Source: Streptomyces rochei
GTDB taxonomy: Bacteria > Actinomycetota > Actinomycetes > Streptomycetales > Streptomycetaceae
Length of the DNA stretch: 59,915 bases
NCBI GenBank assembly: GCA_002155895.1
Contig: MUMD01000006.1
Coordinates: 1 to 59,915, forward strand
Direction: 5' to 3'
The translations under genes were made by a program, and so were the position numbers. The notes beneath the pieces are model-generated. The model was not told the origin of the DNA and did no database searches. It was given only the letters and a program-made list of their open reading frames with translations. Shown here in pieces: positions 2,971-53,626 of this stretch. Position 1 is the stretch's first letter; each line of letters starts with the position of its first letter.

Positions 2971-4554
2971 TCACGCGAGCCTGCGCGGCGTGTACGCGAA
3001 GGCCGAGGCCGGGACCGGGACGCCGTAGGTGCGCAGTTGATGGGCCCGCGTGAGAACGGCGGCGCCTTCGAGGAGGTTGAGCGCGATCTGCACCACGGTG
3101 CGGTTCTCCGGTTCGGCGAGGAAGCCTCCGGCGGTCCACCGGTTGAACGCTCCCACCGCCGGGCCGCACCAGATCTGGTAGTCGGTGCGCCGGCCGGTGT
3201 CCCCGTCGATGGCCCAGCGGCTGGAGCTGCCCAGGTACCAGCGGAAGACGAGGGCCATCCGGTGCTTGGGGTCGTTCTCCGCCCGTGTGATCTGTGCGGG
3301 GTCGCGTGCCGCCCAGAACCGCTTGGTCCGTTCCCACACCTCGTCGACGGGAGCCCCGAGGACGTCCCGTTCCAGCTTCTGCCGCTCCGGGGAGGGGATG
3401 TCCTCCAGCGAAGGGTGGGCCCGGTAGGCGGCGTAGAGCCGGGAGGCCCTGGGGGCGAACATCGTGCCCCGGCGCAGCACCTGGAGGGTGACGCCCATCT
3501 CGAACATGTCCGCCGCGGGCGCCATGGTGACGTCGGCGACGTCCGCCTGGGCGAGCAGTGTCTTGGCGTCGTCCGAGATGCCGGCCTCGGTGGCCGTCTG
3601 GTTCACCGACCCGGTCACCACGTAGGCCGCCCCGAGCGCGAAGGCGGCGGCCACCGCGGCGGGCGTTCCGAGCCCTCCCGCGGCACCGACCCCGACCGGG
3701 CGCCGGTAGCCGAAACGGCGGGTGACGTCGTCGCGCAGCATCAGCACGCGGGGCAGGAGGGAGCCCAGCGGGCGTCCGTCGGTGTGGCCACCGCTGTCGG
3801 CCTCCACCGTGACGTCCTCGGCCACCGGTACCTGGCGGGCCAGTTCGGCCTCGTCGGCGCTCAGCTCGCCCTGCTCGACGAGTCGGCGCAGCAGCTCGGC
3901 CGGTGCGGGTGAGAGGAACTTGTCGGCGACCTCGGGCCGGGACACCTTGGCGAGAATCCGGGTGGGCCGCAGGACGCTCCCGTCGGCGTCCCGGCGCAGT
4001 CCGCGGGCCGCGCACAGCACCGCGGCGGGCGTGAGTTCCAGGTAGGCCGAGAGCGACACACGGGGCACCCGGTGGTGGAGCAGCAGCTTCGCGGCCCGCA
4101 GTTCCAGTCCCGGTTCGGCCGGTGAGTGGATGAGGTTCACGCCCCAGTTGGTCCTGTCCCGGAGCCGATCGGCCAGTTCGCGCACGGCCCGCTCGACCTC
4201 CGGCAGGCCGAGACCCGCCGCGCCGAAGAAGCCGAGCATGCCGGCCCGGGCCATCGCGGTGACCATGCGGGTGGTCGCGATGCCGTTCGCCATCTCACCC
4301 GCCACATAGGGGAAGCGGACACCGTGGGCCTCGCAGAAGGCGCGCCCGCCGAGCCACTCCGGGTACAGCGGCGGCAGCGTGCCGACGACCTCGTCGGCCG
4401 GGCGCGGTCCGAAGGCCAGGCCGAGGGTCCGGCGGGTGCTGTCGGTGACGACGTGCACGTGCTCCCGGATGCGTCGGGTACCGGCGGTGATCGCTTCGGG
4501 TGAGAAGGCCGGCGGTTGCGTATCCGTGCTGCCGGGCCGGGCGGGAGCGGACAA
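2971..4554 (-). CDS. PfaD-like enoyl reductase (nitronate monooxygenase-type TIM barrel)
   Basis: Flavin-dependent trans-acting enoyl reductase of the PfaD family, which serves PUFA synthases. TTG start at 4554 chosen because GGAG lies 7 nt upstream and the protein then begins about 15 residues before the conserved PPAFSPEAI stretch. Length 527 aa, close to stand-alone PfaD. Visible family features: FCEAHGVRFPYVAGEMANGI near residue 70, a Gly-rich FGAAGLGLPEVE segment, the GVGAAGGLGTPAAVAAAFAL flavin-phosphate region, and a C-terminal KRFWAARDP / KHRMALVFRWYLG region typical of PfaD. It sits 60 nt after the SDR and 47 nt before the KS-AT gene on the same strand. An open frame continues upstream of the TTG but overlaps the SDR gene and is not PfaD-like. 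Function is inferred from family and context. Confidence 0.88.
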   Translation of the reverse strand: MSAPARPGSTDTQPPAFSPEAITAGTRRIREHVHVVTDSTRRTLGLAFGPRPADEVVGTLPPLYPEWLGGRAFCEAHGVRFPYVAGEMANGIATTRMVTAMARAGMLGFFGAAGLGLPEVERAVRELADRLRDRTNWGVNLIHSPAEPGLELRAAKLLLHHRVPRVSLSAYLELTPAAVLCAARGLRRDADGSVLRPTRILAKVSRPEVADKFLSPAPAELLRRLVEQGELSADEAELARQVPVAEDVTVEADSGGHTDGRPLGSLLPRVLMLRDDVTRRFGYRRPVGVGAAGGLGTPAAVAAAFALGAAYVVTGSVNQTATEAGISDDAKTLLAQADVADVTMAPAADMFEMGVTLQVLRRGTMFAPRASRLYAAYRAHPSLEDIPSPERQKLERDVLGAPVDEVWERTKRFWAARDPAQITRAENDPKHRMALVFRWYLGSSSRWAIDGDTGRRTDYQIWCGPAVGAFNRWTAGGFLAEPENRTVVQIALNLLEGAAVLTRAHQLRTYGVPVPASAFAYTPRRLA

Positions 4555-4613
4555 GGGCGGGCTCCAAGGAGGCGTGCGTACGGGTGACGGTCGGCTGAGA
4601 GGCCCGGGGCGGG

Positions 4614-5747
4614 TCAATGCCGCTGCTGCGCGGGAACCGCCTCCGCGCGGGCCGGGGGCGCCGGGCGGAGACCGGACAGCAGGTAGTCGAGGTCCACCCG
4701 GGTGACGGACCGGGGGGTTCCCAGCGCGGTGCGTACCCGGGTGTCGTCGTAGCGGCGCAGGTGGCTCAGGTAGGGCGTGATGCCGGGGTAGAAGTCCATG
4801 GACGCTTCGAAGGCGGACACGTCGTCGGGTCGCCTCTCGACCAGGCGGGTCCGCAGGGGCGCGAGCCGCTCCATGAGTTCGGTGATCGCGGCCACCGGAA
4901 CGTCGTGCTCGTGGACGACGTGGTAGGTGTCGACCCGGCCGGACGGCTCCCGGTCCGCCAGGCGCAGCATGACTTTCGCCGCGTCCTCGACGGGCATCAT
5001 GTTGAGGTGGCCGTAGCGTCGGCCGACCAGTCGGGCGACGGGCCGTTCGGACCGCGCACGTCCCGGGTCCGCGAGACCGACGGCGCGCAGCGCGTCCCCC
5101 ACCAAGTGGTCCAGGACCTGCAGCGGGTGCCGGGGCAGTTCGGGGTGCGGGGGCAGGTTCGTCACCAGGATGCTCGGCCGCAGGACGATCACCGGCCTGC
5201 GGTGGGTCCGCGACCATGCGTGCACCAGGGTCTCGGCCTCGTACTTGGACCGCTCGTAGGCGTTCTCGAAGCCGTGGGCGTCGTCGAGTTCGTCCTCGTA
5301 GATCACGCCCTCACGGCGTGCTCCGGCCACGAAGGCCGTGCTGACGTGGTGAACCACCGGTCGACGGCCCCCGGCGGCGGCCAACTCCAGTACGGCTCTG
5401 GTTCCTTCGACGTTCACCCGGCGCAGCGAGGCGAGGTCGCCCTCCAGGTTGATGGAGCCGGCGCAGTGCCAGAGCGCGTCGAAGCGGTCCGCCAGTTCCC
5501 GGAACCGGTCCGCGGGCAACCCCATGAGCGGCCGGCTCAGGTCGGTGGGTACCACCCGCACCCGCGTGGGCAGTTCCGCGATCATCCGTTCCGGCGCACC
5601 GGACACCTCGAGGAACCGTGTGATGCGGCCGAAGGGGTCCGCCGAGGCCGCGTGGGTGAGCAAGGTCAGCGTTCCGTCCCGCTCCAGCAGGCACCGCAGC
5701 AGGCGGAGGCCGAGGAATCCGGTGGCACCGGTGAGGGCGATGTTCAC
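4614..5747 (-). CDS. Thioester-reductase-type SDR (NAD-binding_4 / HglB-like)
   Basis: Extended SDR of the thioester reductase/male-sterility type, which releases acyl-thioesters by NAD(P)H reduction to aldehyde or alcohol. GTG start at 5747 with GGGAG 8 nt upstream; 377 aa. N-terminal Rossmann motif GATGFLG (residues 8-14), a HVSTAFVAG segment, the catalytic YERSK (YxxxK) and a following LRPSIL stretch are visible. First gene of the PKS-side group, upstream of PfaD and KS-AT on the same strand. The equivalent gene in heterocyst glycolipid loci reduces the finished chain, so chain release as alcohol or aldehyde is a reasonable guess here. No carrier protein domain is fused to it. Confidence 0.85.
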   Translation of the reverse strand: MNIALTGATGFLGLRLLRCLLERDGTLTLLTHAASADPFGRITRFLEVSGAPERMIAELPTRVRVVPTDLSRPLMGLPADRFRELADRFDALWHCAGSINLEGDLASLRRVNVEGTRAVLELAAAGGRRPVVHHVSTAFVAGARREGVIYEDELDDAHGFENAYERSKYEAETLVHAWSRTHRRPVIVLRPSILVTNLPPHPELPRHPLQVLDHLVGDALRAVGLADPGRARSERPVARLVGRRYGHLNMMPVEDAAKVMLRLADREPSGRVDTYHVVHEHDVPVAAITELMERLAPLRTRLVERRPDDVSAFEASMDFYPGITPYLSHLRRYDDTRVRTALGTPRSVTRVDLDYLLSGLRPAPPARAEAVPAQQRH

Positions 5748-6172
5748 GACCGTGACTCCCGGTGCTCGCGCCCCGAGGAGGCGGGTGGCCGTAATCGCCG
5801 CCGCGCCACCGACTCGCCCGCTCTCATCCCCGGCCTCCCCGTCGGACGCTCCGCACGCACACCGAGGACAGTGCCAGGTGGCGGGGGTCGGCTGCGTCCC
5901 CTTCCGCCCATGGTCATCCCCCAAGGCGTTCCCCGGGTACGGAGGTTGACGAACAGGCACGCGAACACCTGGTCCGGCCGCGTGAAGAACCCTTGGGACT
6001 CCGCGTCCGCACAGCGGAGGGCCGTCTACCTTGTGCTTCCGACCCGGTCGCCGCCCGTTCGAGCGACCGCCCACCCCGGCCCCCCGCTCCTCCGTCCGCC
6101 GGTCGGCGTGCCCTCCTCGATGCCGACCGCTTCCCGGCCCCGCCGGACCGCCTCGACCGGAAGATGGTGACC
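5748..6172. other. Divergent intergenic region of the lipid-PKS locus
   Basis: About 425 bases between the divergent SDR and acyltransferase starts. It must hold promoters for both directions. Frames remain open here on both strands but show no family similarity, and I see no clear palindrome or consensus promoter. Confidence 0.5.
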
Positions 6173-7426
6173 ATGCCCGCCGACGTGCGTACGCACCCGA
6201 TCGACCGCGCGTACCTCAGACTGGAGCAGGCCCGTCCCGGTGCCCGCTGGGACACGGGAGGCATCGCGTACCTCAGCGGCCGGCCACCGAGCCTGGCCGA
6301 CTTCCGCGCCTACGTCGGGATGCGTCTGCCGGAACTCCCCATGCTCACCTATCGGTTGGAACGGACCGCGCGGCCGCCCGTGTGGCGTCCGGACGAGGCG
6401 TTCACTCTGGAACGCCACGTCCACGAAGTGGTGACGGCCGGCCCGGAGGCACCGCCGTCGCCCTTGGAGACCGCCCTCGGCGCACCACTTCCCCGCGACG
6501 CGCCCTGGGGACTGTGGCTGGTGCACGGTGAGACGCCCGACGAGTACGCCGTGTGTTACCGCTTCGAGCACGTGTGCCAGGACGGTGTCGCCGCCGCCCT
6601 CGCCTTCCGTACTCTGCTCGGTACCGGCGAGCCCGCCCTCCGACCGTTGCCCCGGCCGCGCGGTCGCGGGGAGAACCTGCGCAGGACGGTCACGGCGCTG
6701 GGTCTCGCGGTGGCGTACGCCTTCGACGTCCTTCCGCGTCCGGGCCGGCGGTCCTCGACGGCCTTCGTACCCACCGGACGGCGGAAACTGCTGCGGGCCC
6801 GGCTGCCCGTCGAGAGGCTGCGCGGGATCGGCAGGGCACGGGGGGTGTCGGCGAACGACGTTCACCTCGCGGCGCTGGCGGGTGCCCTGGGCAGGTGGTC
6901 GGAGGAGGCCGGCATCCCCCTGCCCCACACGTCGGCGTTGCTGCCCGTGGACGCACGCCGGCACGACGAGGAGCAGACGTGGGGGAACCGCACCTTCGCC
7001 GTCCGGGTGCGGCTCCCCCTGACCGAGTCCTCGCCCCTTCGGCGGCTGGAACTCGTCGCGGCGGCGACTTCCGCGGTGAAGCGGAGGCCACGGAGGCAGG
7101 CCATCCACGATCTGGTCCGGTACATGCCCGCCCGGCCCACGGCCTGGTACATGCGGCAGATCACCTCACCGCGCGTCACCGCGCTGGTGGCGACCTCCGT
7201 GCCGCTCGCCGAGGACGGCGCCCTGGGCGCCACCGACGTCACGGGCGCCGCGCTGCTCCCGCTGCTCCTGCCGGGCCACCTCTGCGGCGTGGGACTGGCC
7301 TTCTTCGGGGACTGGGCCGAGGTCTCCTTCACGGTGGACGACGCGCTTCCCCACGGCGGGCGGTTGCCCGGCCTGTGGACGGACGCCGTGGAGGAACTCG
7401 AGCAGGACCTCGGCGAGGTCGGGTAG
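6173..7426 (+). CDS. WS/DGAT-like acyltransferase (condensation-type fold)
   Basis: Acyltransferase related to wax ester synthase/diacylglycerol acyltransferase; it would pass an acyl chain from CoA or carrier to an alcohol. ATG at 6173 chosen with GGAAG 9 nt upstream; 417 aa, slightly shorter than typical (about 450-480). N-terminal DRAYLRLE resembles the family's start. The catalytic HHxxxDG is EHVCQDG at residues 132-138, so the second His and the Asp-Gly are kept but the first His is Glu. Late motifs include ANDV (as SANDVHLAAL), NRTFAVRV, and a C-terminal LCGVGLAFFGDWAEVSFTVD segment typical of the family. It points away from the PKS genes and shares their intergenic region. Joint work with the reductase (acyl chain plus fatty alcohol) is an inference. 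Confidence 0.82.
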   Translation: MPADVRTHPIDRAYLRLEQARPGARWDTGGIAYLSGRPPSLADFRAYVGMRLPELPMLTYRLERTARPPVWRPDEAFTLERHVHEVVTAGPEAPPSPLETALGAPLPRDAPWGLWLVHGETPDEYAVCYRFEHVCQDGVAAALAFRTLLGTGEPALRPLPRPRGRGENLRRTVTALGLAVAYAFDVLPRPGRRSSTAFVPTGRRKLLRARLPVERLRGIGRARGVSANDVHLAALAGALGRWSEEAGIPLPHTSALLPVDARRHDEEQTWGNRTFAVRVRLPLTESSPLRRLELVAAATSAVKRRPRRQAIHDLVRYMPARPTAWYMRQITSPRVTALVATSVPLAEDGALGATDVTGAALLPLLLPGHLCGVGLAFFGDWAEVSFTVDDALPHGGRLPGLWTDAVEELEQDLGEVG

Positions 7427-13485: not shown

Positions 13486-14409
13486 TCATGCCACCCTGAT
13501 GACGATCTTTCCCGAGGCGTGACCGTTCTCGACGGCGGCGAGGGCGGCCGGGGCGTCGGAGAGGGCGTGGACCGCGGTGATCACGGGTGCGAGCAGGCCG
13601 TCGAGGGCCAGCCGGGCCGACCGCTCCAGGTTCTCGCGGTCGACGCGACGCTCGACGAAACGCCCACCGAGATCGGGCACGGACATGTCACCCACGGCGA
13701 TGACGTTGCGGGGGTCCTGGGCCAGCGGAGCGACCGTCCGCAGCGAGCTGCCGCCGGCCAGGTCGACGATCCCGTCGAAGCCGTCCGGAACCAGCGCGCG
13801 TGCCACGGCGGCGACGTCCTCAGCGGTGTAGTCGACGAACCGCACCCCGACGGCCTCGGCGTGCTCGCGTTTGGCGGTACTCCCGGTGCCGATCACCCGC
13901 AGCCCGCGCCCGACGGCCAGCCGGGCGACGGCGAGGCCGACCCCGCCCCCTACTCCGTTGACCAGGACCGTGGCACCGGCCGGGAGGCCGAGCTGGTCGA
14001 GCACGTCCACCGCGGTCGTCCCGGCCACCGGCAGCGTTGCCGCCACGGTCGCGGACAGACCCTCCGGGATGCGCGCGGTGTGCGGCGCGGACAGCACCGT
14101 CGTCTCGGCGTAGGTGCCGCCACCGGTGAGTGCGAAGCCGAAGACCGCGTCACCCACCTCGAGCCCGTTGACGTCCTCCCCCAGGGCGAGGACGGTTCCG
14201 GCTGCCTCCATGCCCAGCACGCGGGGAAACGGACGCCCGCCGTCGAGCCCTTCGACCGGACCCGAGCGCAGAAGGTGGTCGAGGGGATTGACGCCGGCGA
14301 CGTCCACCCGGATCAGCACCTCGCCGCGCCCCGGAGCAGGGTCGGGACGATCGAAGAACTCCTGCACCTCGGGCCCGCCGTGCCTGCCGAAACCCCACGC
14401 CTTCCCCAT
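13486..14409 (-). CDS. NADP-dependent quinone-oxidoreductase-type enzyme
   Basis: Medium-chain reductase without structural zinc, 307 aa. ATG at 14409 with AGAGG 9 nt upstream. GroES-like N-terminal domain (GEVLIRVDVAGVNPLDHLL), then the nucleotide fold with VNGVGGGVGLAVARLA near residue 150 and the C-terminal ENGHASGKIVIRV typical of the family. Follows the merR gene on the same strand with an 88-nt gap that holds a MerR-like promoter, a very common actinobacterial pair. It likely reduces quinones or alpha,beta-unsaturated carbonyls. Confidence 0.88.
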   Translation of the reverse strand: MGKAWGFGRHGGPEVQEFFDRPDPAPGRGEVLIRVDVAGVNPLDHLLRSGPVEGLDGGRPFPRVLGMEAAGTVLALGEDVNGLEVGDAVFGFALTGGGTYAETTVLSAPHTARIPEGLSATVAATLPVAGTTAVDVLDQLGLPAGATVLVNGVGGGVGLAVARLAVGRGLRVIGTGSTAKREHAEAVGVRFVDYTAEDVAAVARALVPDGFDGIVDLAGGSSLRTVAPLAQDPRNVIAVGDMSVPDLGGRFVERRVDRENLERSARLALDGLLAPVITAVHALSDAPAALAAVENGHASGKIVIRVA

Positions 14410-14460
14410 CTTTCGCCGCCTCTCGTACAACCGGCCCGGTACTTCCGGGCGTTGTCGCCA

Positions 14461-14491
14461 TCCTCACCTCTGACATTGATGTGAAGGGCAA
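14461..14491 (-). promoter_or_regulatory. MerR-type promoter before the oxidoreductase
   Basis: Minus-strand -35 TTGCCC (14486-14491), long 19-nt spacer, and -10 TGAGGA (14461-14466). The spacer carries an imperfect dyad around CTGACATTGATGTGAAG. A long spacer with a central dyad is the hallmark of MerR activation by DNA untwisting. Confidence 0.5.
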
Positions 14492-14517
14492 CCGGCTGAG
14501 ACGCAGATCACACAACC

Positions 14518-14913
14518 TCAGACCTCTTGCGCCACCGGCTCCCGCGCCGTGGACAGCTCAGCCCGGTGTCGGCTGTTGGCCCTGACCAGCACGTCGAGTG
14601 CGTCCCGAGTCTCGATCAGGTGCGCGATCTCGGCGTCGATCCGGTCACGCTCGCGCATCATCGCCCTGAACGTCTCCTCGGCGACGTCCAGGTCACCCGG
14701 GTCGTCCACACACGGCAGCACCGTCGCGATCACCCTGCTGGACAGGCCCGCCTCCAGCAGCTGTCGGATGAGTGACACCCGCTGGACCGCGGCATCGGAG
14801 TAGTGACGCTGCCCCGCGTCGGAGCGTGAGCTGGTCAGCAGGCCCTGATCTTCGTAGTAGCGCAGTGAGCGCGGGCTCACGCCCGTGCGCTTGGACAACT
14901 CGCCTATCCGCAT
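14518..14913 (-). CDS. MerR-family regulator
   Basis: 131 aa. N-terminal winged helix: MRIGELSKRTGVSPRSLRYY, then EDQGLL. A long dimerisation helix follows (FRAMMRERDRIDAEIAHLIE). No cysteine cluster for metal binding is seen, so it is more like the organic-ligand or redox-linked group. The start codon lies 7 nt after a TAGGCT box (14921-14926), which suggests a leaderless message; the GAGG just before ATG is too close to act as a ribosome site. Probable activator of the following oxidoreductase gene. Confidence 0.9.
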   Translation of the reverse strand: MRIGELSKRTGVSPRSLRYYEDQGLLTSSRSDAGQRHYSDAAVQRVSLIRQLLEAGLSSRVIATVLPCVDDPGDLDVAEETFRAMMRERDRIDAEIAHLIETRDALDVLVRANSRHRAELSTAREPVAQEV

Positions 14914-15097
14914 CCTCGAGAGCCTACGCCCGCGTGCTCAGGTACCGGCCGCCTCGCGTCATGGCCACTCGCGGACGCCCTCCGCCGGGCCAGGTCCCCT
15001 CAGCACCGATCACCCACTGCCACGTCCGACGGCCTTCTTGATGCCTCTCGGCATCGAGGCGATCTCGCCTCCTGGAGCATGCGTGGAAAATGGTGGA

Positions 15098-17869
15098 ATG
15101 ACGCGAGGGAACCAGGGCTCGACACGCGATCGTGCACTGACGATGGTGGGTCGGGAGACCGAGACCGCGGAAATCATGCGGCGCCTCGCCATCGACCGGT
15201 GCCACAGCGAGGTGTTGATCCTCACGGGAGAACCCGGGGCCGGCAAGAGCGTACTGCTCGACCTCGCGGCCGACCGCGCGCGGCGCGAGGGCAGCCGGGT
15301 ACTGCGAGCGGTCGGCAGCGAGTCCGAGGCGCACCTCGGGTTCGCGGGCCTTCATCAGATGCTCCGCCCGGTCCTCGGCGAGTTGGACAGCCTGCCGGCG
15401 CGGCAGCACTCCGCGCTCCGGGCGGCCCTGGGTCTGAGCGAATGCGCCCAGGCCCCTGACGGCATGCTGGTCGGTCTCGCGGTTCTCACCTTGGTGTCGG
15501 AGCTGGCGGAACCGGCGCCGCTGCTCTTGGTGATCGACGATGCCCAGTGGATCGACCGCGCATCGTTGGACGTTCTCTCCTTCGTGGCCCGACGCATGGA
15601 CAGGGAACCCGTCACGCTGCTGCTGGGTGCGCGCGCCGCGGCCGTGCTGCCCGGGTTCGACAAGGGATACGAGCGTCTCGACGTCGGTCCGTTGAGCGGC
15701 GAGGCAGCGAACCGGTTGCTCGACCGACAGCCGGCCCCGCCCGTCGGGCGCACCCGGGTGCGCGTGCTGCAGGAGGCGGCCGGAAATCCGCTCGCCCTGA
15801 TCGAACTGGCCCGCGCCGCCGCGACCCAGCAGCCCGACGGCGGCACCGTGGAGGGCCCGCTGCCCGTCACCGACCGATTGGAGCGGATCTTCGCGCAGCA
15901 CGCGCGGCTCCTGCCGGACGTGACGCGCCGCTCCCTCCTGCTGCTCGCGGCTGCCGATGCGACGGACGCACCGACTGCTCATCGAGGACTCCCCCAGGCC
16001 GACGACGAGACGTGGGCGCCTGCGGAGCGGGCCGGTCTCGTACGCCGAGACGGTGCCCGGATCTCCTTCCGCCACCCGCTCATCCGCTCGGCCGTCTACC
16101 ACGCGGCGTCCTTCGAGGAACGCGGGCACGCGCATCTCGCGCTCGCCGAGTTGCTGAGCGAGGAGCCCGACCGCCGCGCCTGGCACCTCGCCGCCGCGAC
16201 CACACGCCCCGACGAGGACGTGTCGGCCGCCCTGCGGCAGACGGCCGACCGGGCCCGGCGTCGGGGCGGTTACGCGGCCGCTGCCGCCGCTCTGGAGCGC
16301 GCGGCGGAGCTGAGCCCGAGCCGCGCGGACCAGGCGCGGCTGCTGACCGAGGCCGCCGCCATGGCCGTCTTCACCGGTCAGCTCGACTGGGTGGACCGCC
16401 TGGCCGCCGAGGTCCGGGGGCGCAGTGACGATCCAGCGCTGATCAGCAGGGCGTCGCTGGCCACCGGACGGCTCATGGCCCTGCGTCGGCACCATGCGGC
16501 GGCCTTCGCCCTGCTGACGCGCATCGCCGAGGAGGCCGCGGACACCCGGTCACCCCGTCTGCTGGAGGCGCTCGCCGCGGCGGCGGTGGTCCGCTACTAC
16601 TCGGGCGAGGAGTCCCAGCGGCAGCACATCGAGAAGCTGCTCGGCGCTGCGCCGGACGCCACCGTCAGGGACGCCCTGCGCGCCTGGGTGCCGGCCGTCT
16701 CCGACCCCTACGGCGCGGGAGCCTCCCTCGTCCCGGCGCTGCCCGGACTGATCGCCGAGGCCAAGGACGACGCCGACAGTCTCACCGCGCTCGCCATCGT
16801 GGCGTGGATCCTGGACCAGACCGCCCTGGCTGCCCGGACCTTCGACGAGGCGTTCGACCGGTGGCAGGCCCGTGGCTCGCTCCCGGACGGTCTGGGATGT
16901 GCCGTCGGCTGGGCCTATCTGGAGCAGGGCCGGTGGACCGAGGCCCGCTCGGTGGCCGCCGATATCTCGGCGGTGGCGTCCGTGGCAGGGCTGGACCACG
17001 CCGAGGCGTGTGCGCATGTGCTCGACGCGACGGTGCTCGCGCTGCTCGGCGAGTCGGCAGACGCGCGACGGGGTGCCGAGCGGGCACTGGTCCTCGTCGA
17101 CCCGCTGGAGAGCCGCTCCGTCGCGGTCTTCGCCCGCCGGGCCCTGGGTCTGGCGGCAACGGCCGAGGGCGACTACGACACCGCGTACGCGCAGCTCCGG
17201 TCCGCCTTCACCGACGACGGCGATCCGGTGCACTACCACGTCTCCTACACCCTCCTGGCCGAGTTGGCCTCGGCTGCCGCCCGCCTGGGCCGGCGGAAGG
17301 ACGCCGCCGCCCTGCTGGAGCGATCGGCGCGACGCCTGGGCACAGGCGTGTCGGCGCGGGTCACCGCGCTGCTCGACCGAGGCCGCGCTCTGCTCGCCGA
17401 ACCGGAGCACGCAGAACGGTACTTCCGGGCCGCGCTGGCGGACGACACGGGCGAGCAGTGGCCGTTCGAGCGGGCACAGACGCGGCTGGACTACGGCGAA
17501 TGGCTCAGAAGACGACGGCGCATCGCCGAGGCCCGCCCGCAGCTGATCATGGCACTCGACACCTTCCGACGACTCGGCGCGCGGCCCTGGACCGAGCGGG
17601 CGCAGGCAGAACTTCGCGCCGCCGGCATCACCGCCGCCGACGGCGTGGTGCCCAGTGCCCTCACCGAACTGAGCCCACAGCAGCAACAGATCGTGCGACT
17701 CGCCGCCCGCGGCCTGACGAACCGCGAGATCGGAGAGACCCTGTTCCTTTCGCCCCGCACGGTCGGCTCCCACCTCTACCGGGTGTTTCCCAAACTGGGC
17801 ATCACCGCCCGGTCACAGCTCCGCGATGTGATCGAAGGCCCCCTGTCAGGCACCGGCACCCAGATCTGA
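15098..17869 (+). CDS. LAL-type LuxR regulator with AAA ATPase
   Basis: Large ATP-binding regulator of the LuxR family, 923 aa from ATG 15098. N-terminal ATPase with Walker A GEPGAGKS (44-51) and Walker B-like LLLVIDDAQW near 145, then a long helical repeat (TPR-like) middle section, and a C-terminal LuxR helix-turn-helix (LSPQQQQIVRLAARGLTNRE, then IGETLFLSPRTVGSHLYRVF). An ATG at 15142 just before VGRETE is an alternative start. Such proteins often activate secondary-metabolite or catabolic genes. It is divergent from merR and precedes the metallo-hydrolase/esterase genes, which are possible targets. No ligand can be read from the sequence. Confidence 0.92.
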   Translation: MTRGNQGSTRDRALTMVGRETETAEIMRRLAIDRCHSEVLILTGEPGAGKSVLLDLAADRARREGSRVLRAVGSESEAHLGFAGLHQMLRPVLGELDSLPARQHSALRAALGLSECAQAPDGMLVGLAVLTLVSELAEPAPLLLVIDDAQWIDRASLDVLSFVARRMDREPVTLLLGARAAAVLPGFDKGYERLDVGPLSGEAANRLLDRQPAPPVGRTRVRVLQEAAGNPLALIELARAAATQQPDGGTVEGPLPVTDRLERIFAQHARLLPDVTRRSLLLLAAADATDAPTAHRGLPQADDETWAPAERAGLVRRDGARISFRHPLIRSAVYHAASFEERGHAHLALAELLSEEPDRRAWHLAAATTRPDEDVSAALRQTADRARRRGGYAAAAAALERAAELSPSRADQARLLTEAAAMAVFTGQLDWVDRLAAEVRGRSDDPALISRASLATGRLMALRRHHAAAFALLTRIAEEAADTRSPRLLEALAAAAVVRYYSGEESQRQHIEKLLGAAPDATVRDALRAWVPAVSDPYGAGASLVPALPGLIAEAKDDADSLTALAIVAWILDQTALAARTFDEAFDRWQARGSLPDGLGCAVGWAYLEQGRWTEARSVAADISAVASVAGLDHAEACAHVLDATVLALLGESADARRGAERALVLVDPLESRSVAVFARRALGLAATAEGDYDTAYAQLRSAFTDDGDPVHYHVSYTLLAELASAAARLGRRKDAAALLERSARRLGTGVSARVTALLDRGRALLAEPEHAERYFRAALADDTGEQWPFERAQTRLDYGEWLRRRRRIAEARPQLIMALDTFRRLGARPWTERAQAELRAAGITAADGVVPSALTELSPQQQQIVRLAARGLTNREIGETLFLSPRTVGSHLYRVFPKLGITARSQLRDVIEGPLSGTGTQI

Positions 17870-45401: not shown

Positions 45402-46058
45402 TCATGCCTTCCTGCGGGTGACCGCCTGGGTGACAGCGACCGCGGCCGCCAAGACTCCCGCCGTGACGGCGAGCAGGGCACCCGTGGGCGCCAGGACGTC
45501 CGCCGAGTCCGACGCGCTCTGCAGGCGGGTGAGCATGATGTTGACCGGGGACACGCCTTTGCCGAGCAGCACGGCCAGGAGGAGCACCAGGGCGAGGACG
45601 AGCGCGTGGCCCGGCCGCCGGAAGATCAGCCGCGAGCAGACCAGCCCGATCGCCATGCCGGTGCAGGCGCAGGTGAGTTGGGCCGCGATCCCCAGGGCCA
45701 GATCGGCGAGGCCGGGTGTGTGGGCTCCGAGCATCAGGGGCAGCACGAGGCCGGCAGCCGTCAGCAGCAGGCACCCCGTCGCGGCCGTCGCGACCGTCGC
45801 GAGCAGCACGCGCAGGTGGCTGCCGGCGCTGATGACGACGATCGAGCGGTGCGCCCGGTCCTCGAGACCGATCAGTGTCACGGTCAGCCAGACCGAGCAC
45901 GGCAGCATGGCCCCGGCCACCGAGGCGTAGGTCGCGGTGAGCGGGCCGCTGTCGCTGCTGGTCAGCACGGCCACCAGGCCCAGGAACAGCAGCAGCGGCG
46001 CGAGGTAGCGCTGGGAGAGCAGCAGCACCGTGACCATGTAGCCGACCAGGGCGATCAC
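45402..46058 (-). CDS. ABC transporter membrane protein
   Basis: 218 aa, about six hydrophobic helices (VIALVGYMVTVLLLSQRYLA, LLLFLGLVAVLTS, LVLALVLLLAVLLG). GTG at 46058 overlaps the stop of the ATPase gene (GTGA). It has no similarity that fixes the substrate. Together with the ATPase it forms a small exporter-type pair. Confidence 0.78.
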   Translation of the reverse strand: MIALVGYMVTVLLLSQRYLAPLLLFLGLVAVLTSSDSGPLTATYASVAGAMLPCSVWLTVTLIGLEDRAHRSIVVISAGSHLRVLLATVATAATGCLLLTAAGLVLPLMLGAHTPGLADLALGIAAQLTCACTGMAIGLVCSRLIFRRPGHALVLALVLLLAVLLGKGVSPVNIMLTRLQSASDSADVLAPTGALLAVTAGVLAAAVAVTQAVTRRKA

Positions 46059-46954
46059 CGGGTGGTCCCCCGCGCGTCGCCCCGGGAACGGCGTCCGTCC
46101 GCGGTCGCGGTCAGACTGACCACCGACCACCGGTGCCGCAGTGCCGTCAGCAGTACGGCGTCCGAGCGCTCCCGCGACACCCGCAGGACGACCTCCTCGC
46201 CGCACTGGACGACGCCGGTCACACCCGGCAGCGCGGACCAGTTCACCTCGATCGGTGTGACGTCGGTGGGCGGCGCGGTGAGCACCAGCTCGGCCGTCGA
46301 GGGGCGACTCCCGGTGTGCCGGCCGCCCCGCAGGGAGACCCGACCGTCGTCGATGGTGCAGACACCTCGGGCGCGCGTCTCGGTGATCGCCTCCCGGTGG
46401 TCCGTGAAGACCACCGACCCGCCCTGTACGGCCACCTCGTCGATGGACTCCGCGAGGACACCGTGGGCCGAGACGTCCAGACCCGACCAGGGTTCGTCGA
46501 GCACCAACAGGTCGGGTGGGACCAGCAGGGCCTGGGCGAGCGCCACCTTCTGCGCGTTGCCCTTCGACAGCGTGCGCAGCGGTGCGTCCCGCCCGCCCAC
46601 CAAGGACAGCCGCTCCAGCAGGTGGTGGCCTCGGGCGCGGGCGGCGGAGGCCGACAGCCCACGGATACGCCCCATGTGGGTGAGGTAGGAGATCGCCGTG
46701 ACGCGGTCGTGGACGGTGAAGCGGTCCGGTACGTAACCGATGCGCGAGGGTCGGCCCGACACGCTCCCGGTGGTGGGTCGCGACAGTCCGACGAGGATCC
46801 TCAGCAAGGTCGACTTCCCCGAACCGTTGCCGCCGGCCACCGCGAGGACGTCACCGGCCGGGACCTCCATGCTCACGTCCCTGAGGACCCACCGTCCCGC
46901 GCCGTACCGTTTGCCGACCGCATCACAACGTAACAACTCGACTCCTCGACTCAC
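46055..46954 (-). CDS. ABC transporter ATPase
   Basis: About 299 aa from GTG 46954 (TTG further upstream or a later TTG also possible; start unsure). Walker A GGNGSGKST, signature TLSKGNAQKV (an unusual version of LSGGQ), Walker B LLVLDEPW, and an H-loop in VFTDHRE. An extra C-terminal part of about 90 residues follows (for example WSALPGVTGVVQCGEEVVLR), often seen in drug-type ABC proteins. A palindrome GTCAAGTTGAC (47001-47011) is just upstream. Confidence 0.85.
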   Translation of the reverse strand: MSRGVELLRCDAVGKRYGAGRWVLRDVSMEVPAGDVLAVAGGNGSGKSTLLRILVGLSRPTTGSVSGRPSRIGYVPDRFTVHDRVTAISYLTHMGRIRGLSASAARARGHHLLERLSLVGGRDAPLRTLSKGNAQKVALAQALLVPPDLLVLDEPWSGLDVSAHGVLAESIDEVAVQGGSVVFTDHREAITETRARGVCTIDDGRVSLRGGRHTGSRPSTAELVLTAPPTDVTPIEVNWSALPGVTGVVQCGEEVVLRVSRERSDAVLLTALRHRWSVVSLTATADGRRSRGDARGTTR

Positions 46955-47068
46955 CGTGGCCCGCGCGCTGGTCGTTCCAGTCTGACGGACGGGCTCGGCG
47001 GTCAAGTTGACAGGCAGGTGAAGCCCCTGGTGTCCGTGGTCGCGGGACAGGCGCGGTCCGGTGCGTGG

Positions 47069-49233: not shown

Positions 49234-50094
49234 ATGGACGACAACCACCTGGGTGACTTCCTGCGCACACGCCGCGCCGGGCTGCGGCCGGAGGATGTGG
49301 GCATGGCGAGCTACGGGGCCCGCAGAGTCGCCGGCCTGCGCCGCGAGGAGGTCGCCGTCCTGGCCGCGGTGAACGCCGACTACTACACCCGGCTGGAGCA
49401 GGGCCGCGAGCGCAACCCCTCCCCCAAGGTGGTCGACGCGCTCAGCCGCGCCCTGCGCCTCGACGAGGACGCACGCGCGCACTTGTACCGGCTGGCCGGG
49501 GCCACGCCGAACGACGGGCTCTTCGTCCACACCGCCGAGCACGTGAGCCCGTCACTGCGACAGCTGATGGACGGCTACCCCGGCACCCCGGCGTTCGTCA
49601 TGAGCAGGACCCTGGACCTCCTCGCCGTCAACCCCCTGGCCGATGCCCTCTACGCCCCGTTCGAGCCGGCGGACAACTTGGCCCGCATGACCTTCCTCGA
49701 CCCCGCGGGCCGCTCCTTCTACACGGACTGGGACCGGGCGGCACAGGCCACCGTCGCCAACCTTCGCGAGGCATCCGGATTCGACCCGGACAATCCGCGG
49801 CTGCGCGAACTCGTCCGCACCCTCACGGAGCGCAGCCCGGACTTCACCCGCCTCTGGAACGCCCACACCGTGCGCGGCAAGACCCGGGACGCCAAACACC
49901 TCCTCCACCCGGACGTCGGCCCCCTCAGCCTCACCTACCAGGCTTTCGACGTACGCGACGCCCCCGGCCAGCAGCTCGTCATCTACCACGCCGAACCGGG
50001 CAGTCCCAGTGCCCAGTCCCTCGATCTGCTCGGTTCCCTCCACGCGACCCGCCGCAGCTCCGACCCTCGCCCGGGCCACCGGCCCCACCGCTGA
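49234..50094 (+). CDS. XRE regulator with MmyB-like ligand domain
   Basis: 286 aa. HTH: GLRREEVAVLAAVNADYYTR, then LEQGRERNPSPKVVDALSRA; C-terminal MmyB domain with VMSRTLDLLAVNPLADALY. Paralogue of the 20.8-kb regulator. Divergent from the Atu4866-SDR-SDR group. It stands 169 nt before the ABC exporter genes, on the same strand. Confidence 0.9.
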   Translation: MDDNHLGDFLRTRRAGLRPEDVGMASYGARRVAGLRREEVAVLAAVNADYYTRLEQGRERNPSPKVVDALSRALRLDEDARAHLYRLAGATPNDGLFVHTAEHVSPSLRQLMDGYPGTPAFVMSRTLDLLAVNPLADALYAPFEPADNLARMTFLDPAGRSFYTDWDRAAQATVANLREASGFDPDNPRLRELVRTLTERSPDFTRLWNAHTVRGKTRDAKHLLHPDVGPLSLTYQAFDVRDAPGQQLVIYHAEPGSPSAQSLDLLGSLHATRRSSDPRPGHRPHR

Positions 50095-50263: not shown

Positions 50264-50869
50264 GTGGAAGTCGTGGATGTGCATCATCACTATGGCAAGA
50301 GGCGGGTACTGCGGGGTATCGACTTCACCCTGCCCGCGGGAGCGCTGACCGGGGTGGTGGGAGAGAACGGCACCGGCAAGTCCACGCTGCTCAAGATCCT
50401 CGCCGGGGAGTTGCGTCCCGCGCGGGGCAGTGTCCGTCACGGTGGCCGCTTCGGGTATTGCCCGCAGAAGGTGGTGATCAACGACGCGTTGACGGTGCGT
50501 CAGCACTTGTCGTACTTCCGGGCGGCGTTCCGTCTCGACGACCTCGCACACGCCGGGGAGGTCATGGAGGTGCTCGGCTTCACCGACTACATCGACGAGC
50601 GGGCCGGCCTGCTCAGCGGGGGCACGCGGCAGAAGCTGAACGTGACCCTCGCGCTGATGCACGACCCGCAGGTTCTGCTGCTGGACGAGCCCTATCAGGG
50701 CTTCGACTGGGAAACGTACCTGCGTTTCTGGGACCTCGCGGCCCGGCTGCGCGAGCGAGGGCGTTCGATCCTGGTGGTCTCCCACCTCGCCTACGACGCC
50801 GAGCGGCTGGACACACTGTGGCGCCTGGACGGTGGCCGTCTGCGGACACAGGAGAGGGGAGCCGCATGA
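50264..50869 (+). CDS. ABC exporter ATPase
   Basis: 201 aa, short ATPase. GTG start. Walker [10 protein letters not shown], signature [10 protein letters not shown], Walker [11 protein letters not shown] and H-loop VVSHLAYD. Overlaps the membrane gene (ATGA). With the membrane protein and the fused terpenoid enzyme downstream it makes a likely three-gene operon (46 nt gap). Confidence 0.88.
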
Positions 50870-51693
50870 GGGAGCGGACGGCGCTGCTCGTCACGGCCAC
50901 GCGGTACACGCTGGTCGAGCACTCCCGTAACCGGTTCGCCGCGGTGCTCATCGCGCTCTTCCTTCCCCTGTGGACGCTGCTGGCGTACGTGTCGATGCCG
51001 GACCAGCCGGTGCGGCTGCGCCTTCGGGCCACCGGGGAACTGCTGACGCCTCGCGGCAACGAGCTGACCGCGGTCAGCGGAGCGCTCAACGCGGTCACCC
51101 TGATCACCGCGTTCCTGATGTTCGCCGCGACCTTCGGCGGCAGCATGTTCGACCGGCGCCTGGCCATGGCCGGCTTTCCTCGGCCCCATCTGATCGCGGC
51201 GAAGCTGGCCGGCCTCACTCTCGCGTCGGCCCTGGTGGCCGCCTACGCGACAGCCGTCATCTGCCTGGCCTGGACACCGCGTCAGCCCCTGCTGCTGGCC
51301 GGGGCGTTGTTCAGCGCGGGGCTGACGTACGGCATCCTCGGAGTCGGCTTCGGTGCTCTGCTGCGCAAGGAAGTGGAGGGCATGTTCGCCATCGTGATGA
51401 CCAGTGTCATCGACCTCGCGCTGCAGAATCCCATCATCAGCTCCCGTGCGGACAGCGCCATCACACACTTTCTGCCGTCCTACGGGGCCATGCAGGCGGC
51501 CACCGCGGCGGCCTTCTCCCGCACGGCCGTCCCGGGGCACCTGCTCGTCGAACTGACCTGGTTCGCCGCGGCGGCACTCGTGGGGCTGCTGACCTTCCAG
51601 TGGCGCACCCGCAGCACCTTGCCCTCGAACCGCCGGGCGCCGCGGGGCAACGGCCCGCGACCTGCCGAACCGCGGCCGCTTCCGGAGGGCTGA
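50866..51693 (+). CDS. ABC exporter membrane protein
   Basis: 275 aa, ABC2-type membrane domain with about six helices ([60 protein letters not shown]). ATG overlaps the ATPase stop. GAGGAG follows the coding end but is 45 nt from the next gene. Probably exports a lipid-like compound, given the adjacent prenyl enzyme (inference). Confidence 0.83.
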
Positions 51694-51739: not shown

Positions 51740-53626
51740 GTGATCCTTGTGTTCTCCACATCTCCAGGCCCGCGACGCTCCGCCGTTCCGCGGGCCGGCC
51801 GCCGCACGACGAGATCGCTGTGGGAGGCGGTCGGTGACGATCCGGCGTTGCGGGCGGCGTACCGGCTCTGCCGGGCCAGGACCAAGCGACAGGACCCCGC
51901 GGAATACGCTCTGATCCAACTCGTGCCCGCTGTGATGCGTCCGGCGTGCTGGGCCCTGTGGGCGGCGGCCAACGCCATCGACGATCTTGCCGACGACCAC
52001 TCGGTCGACGCGGAACGGCGTGCCGAGCGGGTCGGAGCATGGATCGCCGCGTTGGATCACGATGTGGCCACCGGGTCGAGCACGGACCCGGTCCGCCGGG
52101 CTCTGGTGGACACCGCCTGGCGATGGCGCCTGGACATCTCGGGGCTGCACGGCGCCATGGCGGTGGTGCGGCGAGACAGCCACGGGCAGCGTTTCGCCGA
52201 CTGGAACAGCTGGCGCGCGTGGGGCCGCGGCACGCTGCTCCCCTGGTTCGACCAGGTCCGTGACCTCTTCGACAAGGCCGGGGCCGGGGTGGCACTGCGT
52301 CTGGACCGGCAGGAGGTCTACACGACGTTCCTCGACGGCGTCCGTCTCACGGACATCCTCACCGACCTGTCCGCCGACCTGGCGCAAGGTGGCCTCCTCC
52401 TGCCCGGTCAGGCCCTGGATCGCTTCCCGGGCTGCGAGGACGACCTGTCGCACCGGCGCTGGAGTCCGGCCACCTCCGCCCTGGTCACCGACCTGACGCG
52501 GCTCGCCCGCGCATGGGTGACCCAGCCCGCTCTCGCCCACGGCATGCACCCCGGCCCCGCCGTCGTCCTCGACACCATGGCCGGGCTGCTGCGCGCACAG
52601 CTCGACGCCGTCGACGCCGCCGGTCCCGCTCTCCTGCGCACCCCGCCCAGGCCGTCGACGGCCGCCACCGCCCGTCTCGTCGTCCCCGCCCGAGCGCGGT
52701 CCGCCCTGGCCTGGAGCCTGACCCCGGTGACCGTCCCACGGCCACGCGAGGCCCGGGCCCCCGCCGTCCCCGCGCAGAGCCCACCCGCGCGGCGCCCGGT
52801 GTTCGACCGTCCGCCGCCGCACCCCAGCGGTGAGCAGCCACCACGGATCCCGGCCGACCGGATGCCCACCCACGTCGCCGTGATCATGGACGGCAACGGC
52901 CGGTGGGCGCGGCACCGCGGCCTGCCTCGGCACGAAGGCCACCGCGCCGGCCGCGCCGCCGCCCGCGAGATGGTCTACGGCGCCCTCGAGATCGGCCTGC
53001 GGCACTTGACCCTCTACACCTTGTCCACCGAGAACTGGAAGCGCGACGGCGAGGAGATCGGCGCCATCCTCGACATCCTGCGCGAGGAGCTGGAGGACTA
53101 TCCCTTCCAGGATCTCGACGTCCGGGTGCGCTGGCACGGCCGTCCGGAGCGACTGCCGCAGGACGTGGTCGACAGCATGCGGCTGCGTGAGCGCACCACG
53201 CGTGACCGCACGGGCCTGACACTGACCACCTGCATCAACTACGGCGGCCGGGACGAGATCACCCGTGCCGCCGCCGCCCTGGCCCGGCGGGTCCGCGACG
53301 GCGAACTCGACCCCGACGCGATCCGTGAGGAAGACCTCGCGCGGCACCTGCCCCAACCGGACATGCCCGATGTGGACCTCCTGTGGCGTACCGGCGCCGA
53401 GCAGCGCGTGTCGAACTTCCTGCCCTGGCACACCTCCTACGCCGAGCTGTACTTCACTCCGGACCACTGGCCCGAGACCGACCGGCGCCACCTGTGGCAG
53501 GCCATCGGCGAGTACACCCGCCGACAGCGCCGCCACGGCGCCTCAGCCGACAGCCCCGTCCCGGGAACCCCCGGAACGGCACCGCCTTCAGGGACCGCGG
53601 AGAACGTGGGGGCCGGGGGCCTCTGA
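51740..53626 (+). CDS. Fusion of squalene/phytoene-synthase-like domain with cis-prenyltransferase
   Basis: 628 aa two-domain protein; the unbroken reading frame has no frameshift between domains. Residues about 30-290 have the squalene/phytoene synthase fold pattern: first Asp motif DDLADD (81-86) and second motif DILTDLSAD (205-213) with GGLLLP after it, as in the NILRDVxED...LP of that family. The usual YxxxVAG segment is replaced by WGRGTLLPW (161-169). Residues 300-375 are a Pro-rich linker. Residues 376-605 are a full UppS-type cis-prenyltransferase: MDGNGRWA (383-390, catalytic Asp384), GHRAGRA, LSTENWKR, INYGG, RTGAEQRVSNF (550-560). The first domain makes terpenoid C-C bonds; the second adds IPP in cis. 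Start GTG 51740 has no good ribosome site; GTG 51749 is an alternative. Product unknown. Confidence 0.88.
   Translation: MILVFSTSPGPRRSAVPRAGRRTTRSLWEAVGDDPALRAAYRLCRARTKRQDPAEYALIQLVPAVMRPACWALWAAANAIDDLADDHSVDAERRAERVGAWIAALDHDVATGSSTDPVRRALVDTAWRWRLDISGLHGAMAVVRRDSHGQRFADWNSWRAWGRGTLLPWFDQVRDLFDKAGAGVALRLDRQEVYTTFLDGVRLTDILTDLSADLAQGGLLLPGQALDRFPGCEDDLSHRRWSPATSALVTDLTRLARAWVTQPALAHGMHPGPAVVLDTMAGLLRAQLDAVDAAGPALLRTPPRPSTAATARLVVPARARSALAWSLTPVTVPRPREARAPAVPAQSPPARRPVFDRPPPHPSGEQPPRIPADRMPTHVAVIMDGNGRWARHRGLPRHEGHRAGRAAAREMVYGALEIGLRHLTLYTLSTENWKRDGEEIGAILDILREELEDYPFQDLDVRVRWHGRPERLPQDVVDSMRLRERTTRDRTGLTLTTCINYGGRDEITRAAAALARRVRDGELDPDAIREEDLARHLPQPDMPDVDLLWRTGAEQRVSNFLPWHTSYAELYFTPDHWPETDRRHLWQAIGEYTRRQRRHGASADSPVPGTPGTAPPSGTAENVGAGGL

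Follow-up and report, generated by a model that had tools for sequence, protein, structure and literature searches.

Gene organization at the fusion locus

The stretch of Streptomyces rochei DNA analyzed in this study (the window; 59,915 nucleotides) contains, at 51740..53626 on the forward strand, a gene for a protein of 628 amino acids with a squalene/phytoene synthase (SQS/PSY)-like domain, a linker and a cis-prenyltransferase (cis-PT) domain, as judged from the ORF, from Pfam and from homologous one-frame fusions. The frame is single and open; it starts with the GTG at 51740 or with another in-frame GTG at 51749, and the coordinates given here use 51740. Pfam analysis placed the SQS_PSY-like domain (PF00494) at residues 49-303 (51884..52648, forward strand) with 64.7 bits against a gathering cut-off of 26 (1.4e-17), and the UPPS-type cis-PT domain (PF01255, Prenyltransf) at residues 382-600 (52883..53539, forward strand) with 226.6 bits against a cut-off of 27 (3.5e-67), the whole profile (1-219/219) being covered. 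With both models above cut-off in one protein, the HMM search proposed in the initial annotation confirmed its reading of the gene as a fusion of the two domains. The PF00494 scores of relatives were 73.7 bits in S. pseudovenezuelae (L008), 55.2 in S. tendae (L088), 109.5 in Embleya (L089) and 61.6 at locus L123. A Pfam scan of the window protein up to E 10 revealed no domain beyond SQS_PSY and Prenyltransf, and an epoxidase domain of the MonCI/Lsd18 type was absent by the same method. Structure prediction, which had been suggested for both domains, gave a confident model for the cis-PT part (pLDDT of 74-97 per 10-residue block) and a low-confidence one for the SQS part (pLDDT below 60 except at about residues 71-130; mean of 46 in a second model built without an alignment).

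Analysis of the upstream region revealed an MmyB-type helix-turn-helix regulator (49234..50094, forward strand; PF17765), an ABC transporter ATPase of 201 amino acids (50264..50869, forward strand; PF00005) and an ABC-2-type permease of 275 amino acids (50866..51693, forward strand). The permease matched PF12698 weakly, with 20.8 bits against a cut-off of 31.6 (33.9 bits for its L008 orthologue). Orthologues in L008, L120 and L121 share 74-77% identity with the ATPase, and orthologues of the permease 69-73%. The ATPase gene overlaps the permease gene by the four nucleotides ATGA (50866-50869). As noted earlier, the permease is separated from the fusion by 46 nucleotides, its stop codon ending at 51693 and the GTG lying at 51740. 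A second ABC ATPase gene (46055-47005, reverse strand) is located next to an SDR gene, some 3 kb ahead of the ABC pair.

The genome contains further isoprenoid genes. The hpnC, hpnD and hpnE genes were all found above cut-off at one locus (L006), and crtI-family genes above cut-off were found at two others (L005 and L007), where the adjacent CrtB-like genes fall short of every SQS equivalog. The latter are two separate loci, each with a Rieske-like ORF by eye. Two standalone cis-PTs (L002 and L003) scored above NCBIfam cut-offs, including that of the uppS model. Since the genome has its own cis-PTs, hpnC-hpnD-hpnE and two CrtB-like genes, the fusion is unlikely to be a housekeeping copy.

Recurrence of the fusion

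A total of 101 Streptomyces genomes were searched with the SQS domain as query, scored among the best 20 candidates per genome. Matches at E <= 1e-15 were found in 22 genomes, 13 of which (own genome included) reached E <= 1.5e-48; the matches in the other nine were weak (1.8e-20 or worse). An intact one-frame fusion is present in nine of the 13 strong genomes (own, G061, G026, G078, G013, G060, G018, G067 and G001). Together with S. pseudovenezuelae (L008:7911-9716, 62-64% identity) and Embleya sp. NBC_00888 (L089, 44-45% identity), both domains occur in one frame at 11 loci. Among the remaining strong genomes, the frame is broken in L118 (G009), the SQS N-terminus is missing in L122 (G027), and the fusions L101 (G099) and L126 (G097) run into contig ends. 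Flanking sequences were covered for 12 of the 13 strong genomes, G099 being represented by L101 alone. Recurrence of homologous one-frame fusions in other genomes indicates more than chance and rules out a sequencing or assembly join, a circumstance that the initial annotation had named as refuting the fusion.

The break in L118 (9324-11169, forward strand) lies between the SQS and cis-PT parts, in a single-contig genome. The S. tendae copy (L088:9965-11578), on plasmid NZ_CP043960.1, also lacks the SQS N-terminus and overlaps a hypothetical ORF; a CHAT-domain gene lies upstream and a terminal-protein gene downstream. Given the broken frame in L118 and the missing N-terminus in L122 and L088, some hosts therefore manage without an intact copy.

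A profile search of 197 class-level genomes (at least 16 Streptomyces), scored among the best 11 candidates per genome, revealed a sharp gap: the own genome, G013 and G067 scored at least 440 bits, and the next best match 182. In 55 of the 197 genomes there was no match. No cis-PT was found beside the best 17 lower profile matches (L144-L160, 2.4-3.9 kb each), and scans of viral contigs found no SQS relatives. Within the genomes searched here, the fusion was found in two genera, Streptomyces and Embleya. At L128 (9118-10086, forward strand), an SQS-like gene stands alone, close to a P450-like gene; its best solved chains are LvqB4/CqsB4 (1.6e-29), and the 20-kb stretch contained no cis-PT match. 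Judged from these matches, L128 is possibly a phytoene-synthase-like (PSL) prenyltransferase locus.

Motifs of the SQS-like domain

The alignment of the SQS arm comprised 12 rows, one from each of the 11 intact fusions and one from L118 (SQS part). The first Asp-rich motif is DDLADD (residues 81-86; 51980..51997, forward strand) and the second DILTDLSAD (residues 205-213; 52352..52378, forward strand). The five aspartic acids of these metal motifs (D81, D85, D205, D209 and D213) are invariant in 12/12 rows, even though the SQS arm of the divergent rows falls to 34-41% identity with that of the window. The Pfam SQS_PSY domain and the two Asp-rich motifs are shared with HpnC/HpnD and CrtM/CrtB (squalene, presqualene, dehydrosqualene and phytoene synthases), and HpnC (4hd1) is the best solved match of the fused arm. 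The fused arm differs from these enzymes in forming its own clade, in its attached cis-PT and in the loss of the YxxxVAG-like segment. This loss had been noticed from the sequence and is borne out by WGRGTLLPWF in the window protein, where a CrtB-like protein of the same genome has YMHGSAAVIG.

The doubt expressed earlier that the first domain is a standard squalene or phytoene synthase proved well founded. The best equivalog models for the fused SQS domain were HpnD, with 60.7 bits (cut-off 278.6), and HpnC, with 55.1 (cut-off 250.45), and the HpnD score compares with 174 and 194 bits for the CrtB-like proteins and 323 for HpnD of the same genome. With the NCBIfam CrtB model it scored 41.6 bits against a cut-off of 550, which the own-genome CrtB-like proteins (155.1 and 170.5) do not reach either, so the CrtB model by itself discriminates little. 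Scores far below the HpnC and HpnD cut-offs, together with the separate clade, rule out a standard synthase identity.

Analysis of single positions revealed a mixed pattern. In the LTNxLRD motif, the fused arm has aspartic acid for asparagine, and the following arginine (position 208) is replaced by T, E or V in fused rows. In the alignment, the aspartic acid (D205) is found in 15/15 fused rows, in CqsB4 and LvqB4, and in the P450-linked standalone L128; asparagine occurs at this position in CrtB-like, HpnD and CrtM rows, in the 4hd1 HpnC and in the standalone L113, and glutamic acid in three Streptomyces HpnC rows. At position 78, preceding the first Asp motif, five of the six divergent fused rows keep the canonical arginine and L123 has S; the group of the window has N, T or S instead.

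These replacements of canonical basic residues at positions 78 and 208 are what would be expected if the SQS-like domain were a non-catalytic scaffold or regulator and the cis-PT made a lipid carrier for an envelope polymer handled by the ABC pair, and the truncated S. tendae copy, which retains the whole cis-PT, is consistent with this. Invariance of the five metal-motif aspartic acids over divergent rows and purifying selection on the SQS domain argue against it, and we consider an inert domain of this kind improbable.

The aspartic acid at position 205 bears on another explanation, in which the SQS-like domain would prenylate a non-isoprenoid acceptor as PSL enzymes do, with the cis-PT supplying a Z-configured donor, to give a prenylated aromatic or indole. 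The solved matches of the SQS arm include CqsB4 and LvqB4; these are SQS-like domains with Asp motifs and the same D for N, and the first motif of CqsB4 (IDDLADD) is identical to that of the window. There are published precedents for PSL enzymes (PMC6173783, PMC7466098, PMC10156859). However, D146 is kept in the fused arm and replaced by alanine in CqsB4/LvqB4, which are also separate from the fused arm in the tree. NzsG, DmtC1 and NozPT are PSL enzymes as well; the sequence comparison covered CqsB4/LvqB4. Overall, the alignment indicates that the SQS-like domain partly resembles both known groups, the canonical synthases and CqsB4/LvqB4, and groups with neither.

Motifs of the cis-prenyltransferase domain

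The cis-PT alignment (18 rows) combined two fusions with 16 standalone enzymes, a selection from the 79 fetched; a few selected rows were removed because they were short or because their sequence contained stop codons. The motif MDGNGRWA (residues 383-390; 52886..52909, forward strand), which we take to be the diphosphate-binding motif, is invariant in this alignment. In RTGAEQRVSNF (residues 550-560; 53387..53419, forward strand), R550, E554, R556, S558 and N559 are invariant. Residues identical in 18/18 rows include D384, R388, R397, H401, N432, W433, R435, E439, R550, R556, S558 and E569, whose roles are presumed here from E. coli UPPS. Both catalytic sets, described as intact from the sequence, are thus present with all four of their motifs.

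Identity of the fused cis-PT to the 16 aligned standalone enzymes is 40-49%. Actinobacterial UPPS/decaprenyl diphosphate synthase has the catalytic residues and the uppS model in common with it: the fused domain scored 207.9 bits with the general TIGR00055 uppS model (cut-off 109.55). Unlike these enzymes, it has its own clade, forms the C-terminal half of a fusion and falls below the PRK14829 cut-off (275.7 against 372), which L002 of the same genome exceeds at 388.6. The segment between E439 and G467 comprises 29 residues in 9/11 intact fusions against 31 in the 16 aligned standalone enzymes, the exceptions being L123 (27) and L125 (31). The length of this segment presumably bears on product chain length, and the shorter segment hints at a product other than C50-C55. 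A long-chain product is nevertheless compatible, because the fused cis-PT passes the uppS model, as do L002 and L003; passing this model is also consistent with the lipid carrier proposed above.

Phylogeny and selection

In the SQS-family tree (28 rows), a 100/100 branch separates the 15 fused rows from CrtB-like proteins, CrtM, HpnC, HpnD, CqsB4/LvqB4 and two standalone proteins. PSL enzymes are represented in this tree by CqsB4/LvqB4, CrtM and L089 have long branches, and three rows have an odd composition; the support concerns the grouping of the fused rows and not the order of the deeper branches. In the cis-PT tree (31 rows), the 13 fused rows are united in a single clade (100/99), with actinobacterial UPPS next to it (90/92). 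On the two trees, the fused forms share one origin for both arms.

Comparison of seven non-independent pairs gave dN/dS values of 0.22-0.47 for the SQS domain, 0.18-0.39 for the cis-PT domain and 0.40-0.91 for the linker. Both domains are under purifying selection. The Pro/Ala-rich linker (about residues 306-370; 52655..52849, forward strand) evolves faster than both domains in 7/7 pairs. A long and fast-evolving linker, with no sign of channelling, would fit two domains that work without cooperation, the fusion merely co-expressing enzymes with different substrates. We regard this as very unlikely, since each arm is one clade and the fusion has been kept in 11 loci with mostly different neighbours.

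Genes adjacent to the fusions

Comparison of 14 fusion loci revealed the ABC pair directly upstream at four: the window, L008, L120 and L121 (69-77% identity). The pair was not found in L117, L118, L119, L122, L089 or L123-L127 within the fetched stretches of 10.5-21.7 kb; weak ABC ATPase matches occur downstream of the fusion in L125. The SQS tree groups the window with L117, L118, L119 and L101 and not with L008, L120 and L121. Because the window thus lies apart from the other ABC-linked loci, the link is either old with losses or has arisen twice, and because the pair was not found near L117-L119 or the six divergent loci, it lies outside the core function. The initial annotation had taken the ABC link to imply export of the product; with the pair at 4/14 loci and none found at the nearest relatives L117-L119, general ABC export is unsupported. 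Of its expectation that the fusion would be conserved in strains with the same ABC genes, recurrence of the fusion stood, and the ABC genes accompanied it at 4/14 loci. The four loci with the ABC pair agree with the lipid carrier explanation, against which stand the ten loci where it was not found and the oxygenases near most divergent fusions.

An oxygenase is present near five of the six divergent loci (L089, L127, L125, L123 and L126). P450 genes lie just upstream of the fusion, on the same strand, in L127 and L089; the best models of the L127 P450, both below cut-off, were albaflavenone monooxygenase and pentalenene oxygenase. A gene of the MPAB/Lcp (rubber oxygenase) family is located upstream of the fusion in L125 (7751-8578, reverse strand). 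At the sixth locus, L124, the four Pfam-tested neighbours are a regulator, an L,D-transpeptidase, a nitroreductase and an MFS transporter.

A frame of 1116 amino acids at L123 (8084-11431, forward strand) unites a MonCI/Lsd18-type FAD epoxidase with the SQS-like and cis-PT domains. Its N-terminal FAD domain matches MonCI (2e-52) and Lsd18 (3.6e-48) and contains PQARH and NPxxxHGMS motifs; an in-frame epoxidase domain was found at L123 alone among the fusion loci searched (one genome). A Tn3 transposase gene lies upstream (4381-6771). According to PMC10560226, linalool epoxidation in a host is increased by MonCI, whose nearest structures include human squalene epoxidase. The epoxidase domain of L123 would be better suited to a polyene than to a prenylated aromatic acceptor. 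At L126, a MonCI/Lsd18-type homologue lies about 6 kb from the fusion. A control search found MonCI-like genes at E <= 1e-30 in 90/101 Streptomyces genomes, so proximity at L126 is uninformative and epoxidase co-occurrence was rejected as evidence.

The L123 epoxidase domain and the upstream P450s of two relatives hint at an oxidised terpenoid. Neither L124 nor any of the eight loci making up the window's group yielded a homologue of the divergent-locus oxygenases at E <= 1e-5. This contrast is biased, because the query oxygenases were taken from the divergent loci, with one more from L128, and the Pfam analysis covered part of the neighbours. Since no oxygenase homologues were found near the window's group, the case for oxidation does not apply directly to the window itself.

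Upstream of the Embleya fusion, a salicylate synthase gene, an AurF-like gene and the P450 gene lie in a row on the same strand (L089:5585-9575, forward strand), the synthase above its cut-off and the AurF-like gene below. An epoxide hydrolase gene is also present at this locus (14101-15501). The row upstream of the fusion would suit prenylation of an aromatic acceptor. However, homologues of the synthase and of the AurF-like gene were found in none of the other 13 fusion loci searched, and the genome of the window has no salicylate synthase above cut-off; a salicylate-derived product for all fusions was rejected on these grounds. With the likeness to CqsB4/LvqB4 on one side and the tree, D146 and these gene contents on the other, acceptor prenylation is less probable than the reading preferred below but is its strongest competitor.

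Proposed function and relation to known systems

The fusion, its recurrence, the shared ancestry, the intact motifs and the purifying selection are established. The reading we prefer, at a probability of a little under one half (about 0.47), is that the cis-PT makes a Z-prenyl diphosphate which the SQS-like domain uses in cis to build a terpenoid skeleton. The protein would then be an isoprenoid synthase with two functions, belonging to the specialised metabolism of Streptomyces. Going by its family and conserved residues, the C-terminal cis-PT would extend an allylic diphosphate by condensation with IPP; the resulting (Z)-prenyl diphosphate may have a shorter chain than lipid carriers of C50-C55. 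Hand-over of this cis-prenyl diphosphate from the second to the first domain, as had been proposed, is plausible. The SQS-like domain may bind the diphosphate via Mg2+ on its two Asp motifs, ionise it and form a carbon-carbon bond. The product would most likely be an all-isoprenoid polyene or a cyclised terpenoid, formed head-to-head or intramolecularly; an all-isoprenoid product is favoured because divergent relatives couple the fusion to oxygenases of polyene or terpenoid type. Oxidation by partner enzymes would be a lineage-specific third step, and export by the adjacent ABC pair is possible in the window's lineage, not in general. A fuller version of this reading is unlikely as a whole: a single-chain assembly line in which the Z-prenyl diphosphate passes to a new catalytic class of SQS-like domain that yields a Z-polyene or cyclised skeleton, some lineages oxidising it with a fused MonCI-type epoxidase or an adjacent P450.

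Each of the two domain families is known; fused together they make up a clade of their own, which among the rows compared contains no characterised member. All 45 solved sequences with a match align best with a single domain, in chains of at most 360 amino acids; the solved CqsB4 and LvqB4 chains (333 and 360 amino acids) match the SQS arm only. MonCI and Lsd18 resemble the N-terminal domain of the L123 form, for which the window protein has no counterpart. CLDS, of cis-PT fold, is a weak match of the window protein (5.6e-9) and belongs with LvqB4 to the lavanquinocin pathway. That route would pair a cis-PT-family enzyme with an SQS-like enzyme in a similar way, here in one chain. No report of such a fusion was found among the titles and abstracts listed for open-licence PMC literature, a weak negative. 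To our knowledge, the two-domain terpene enzymes known so far join trans-prenyltransferases to cyclases.

Such enzymes may be hidden by annotation, since the S. tendae record names the fusion merely uppS/polyprenyl diphosphate synthase. The 11 intact fusions make the role of the SQS-like domain directly testable. Fusion of a cis-PT with an SQS-like domain would give access to Z-configured scaffolds and offer a ready expression target. If the assembly-line reading is true, the fusions would produce bacterial terpenoids of cis configuration that form a so far unrecognised family and are possibly polyether-like.
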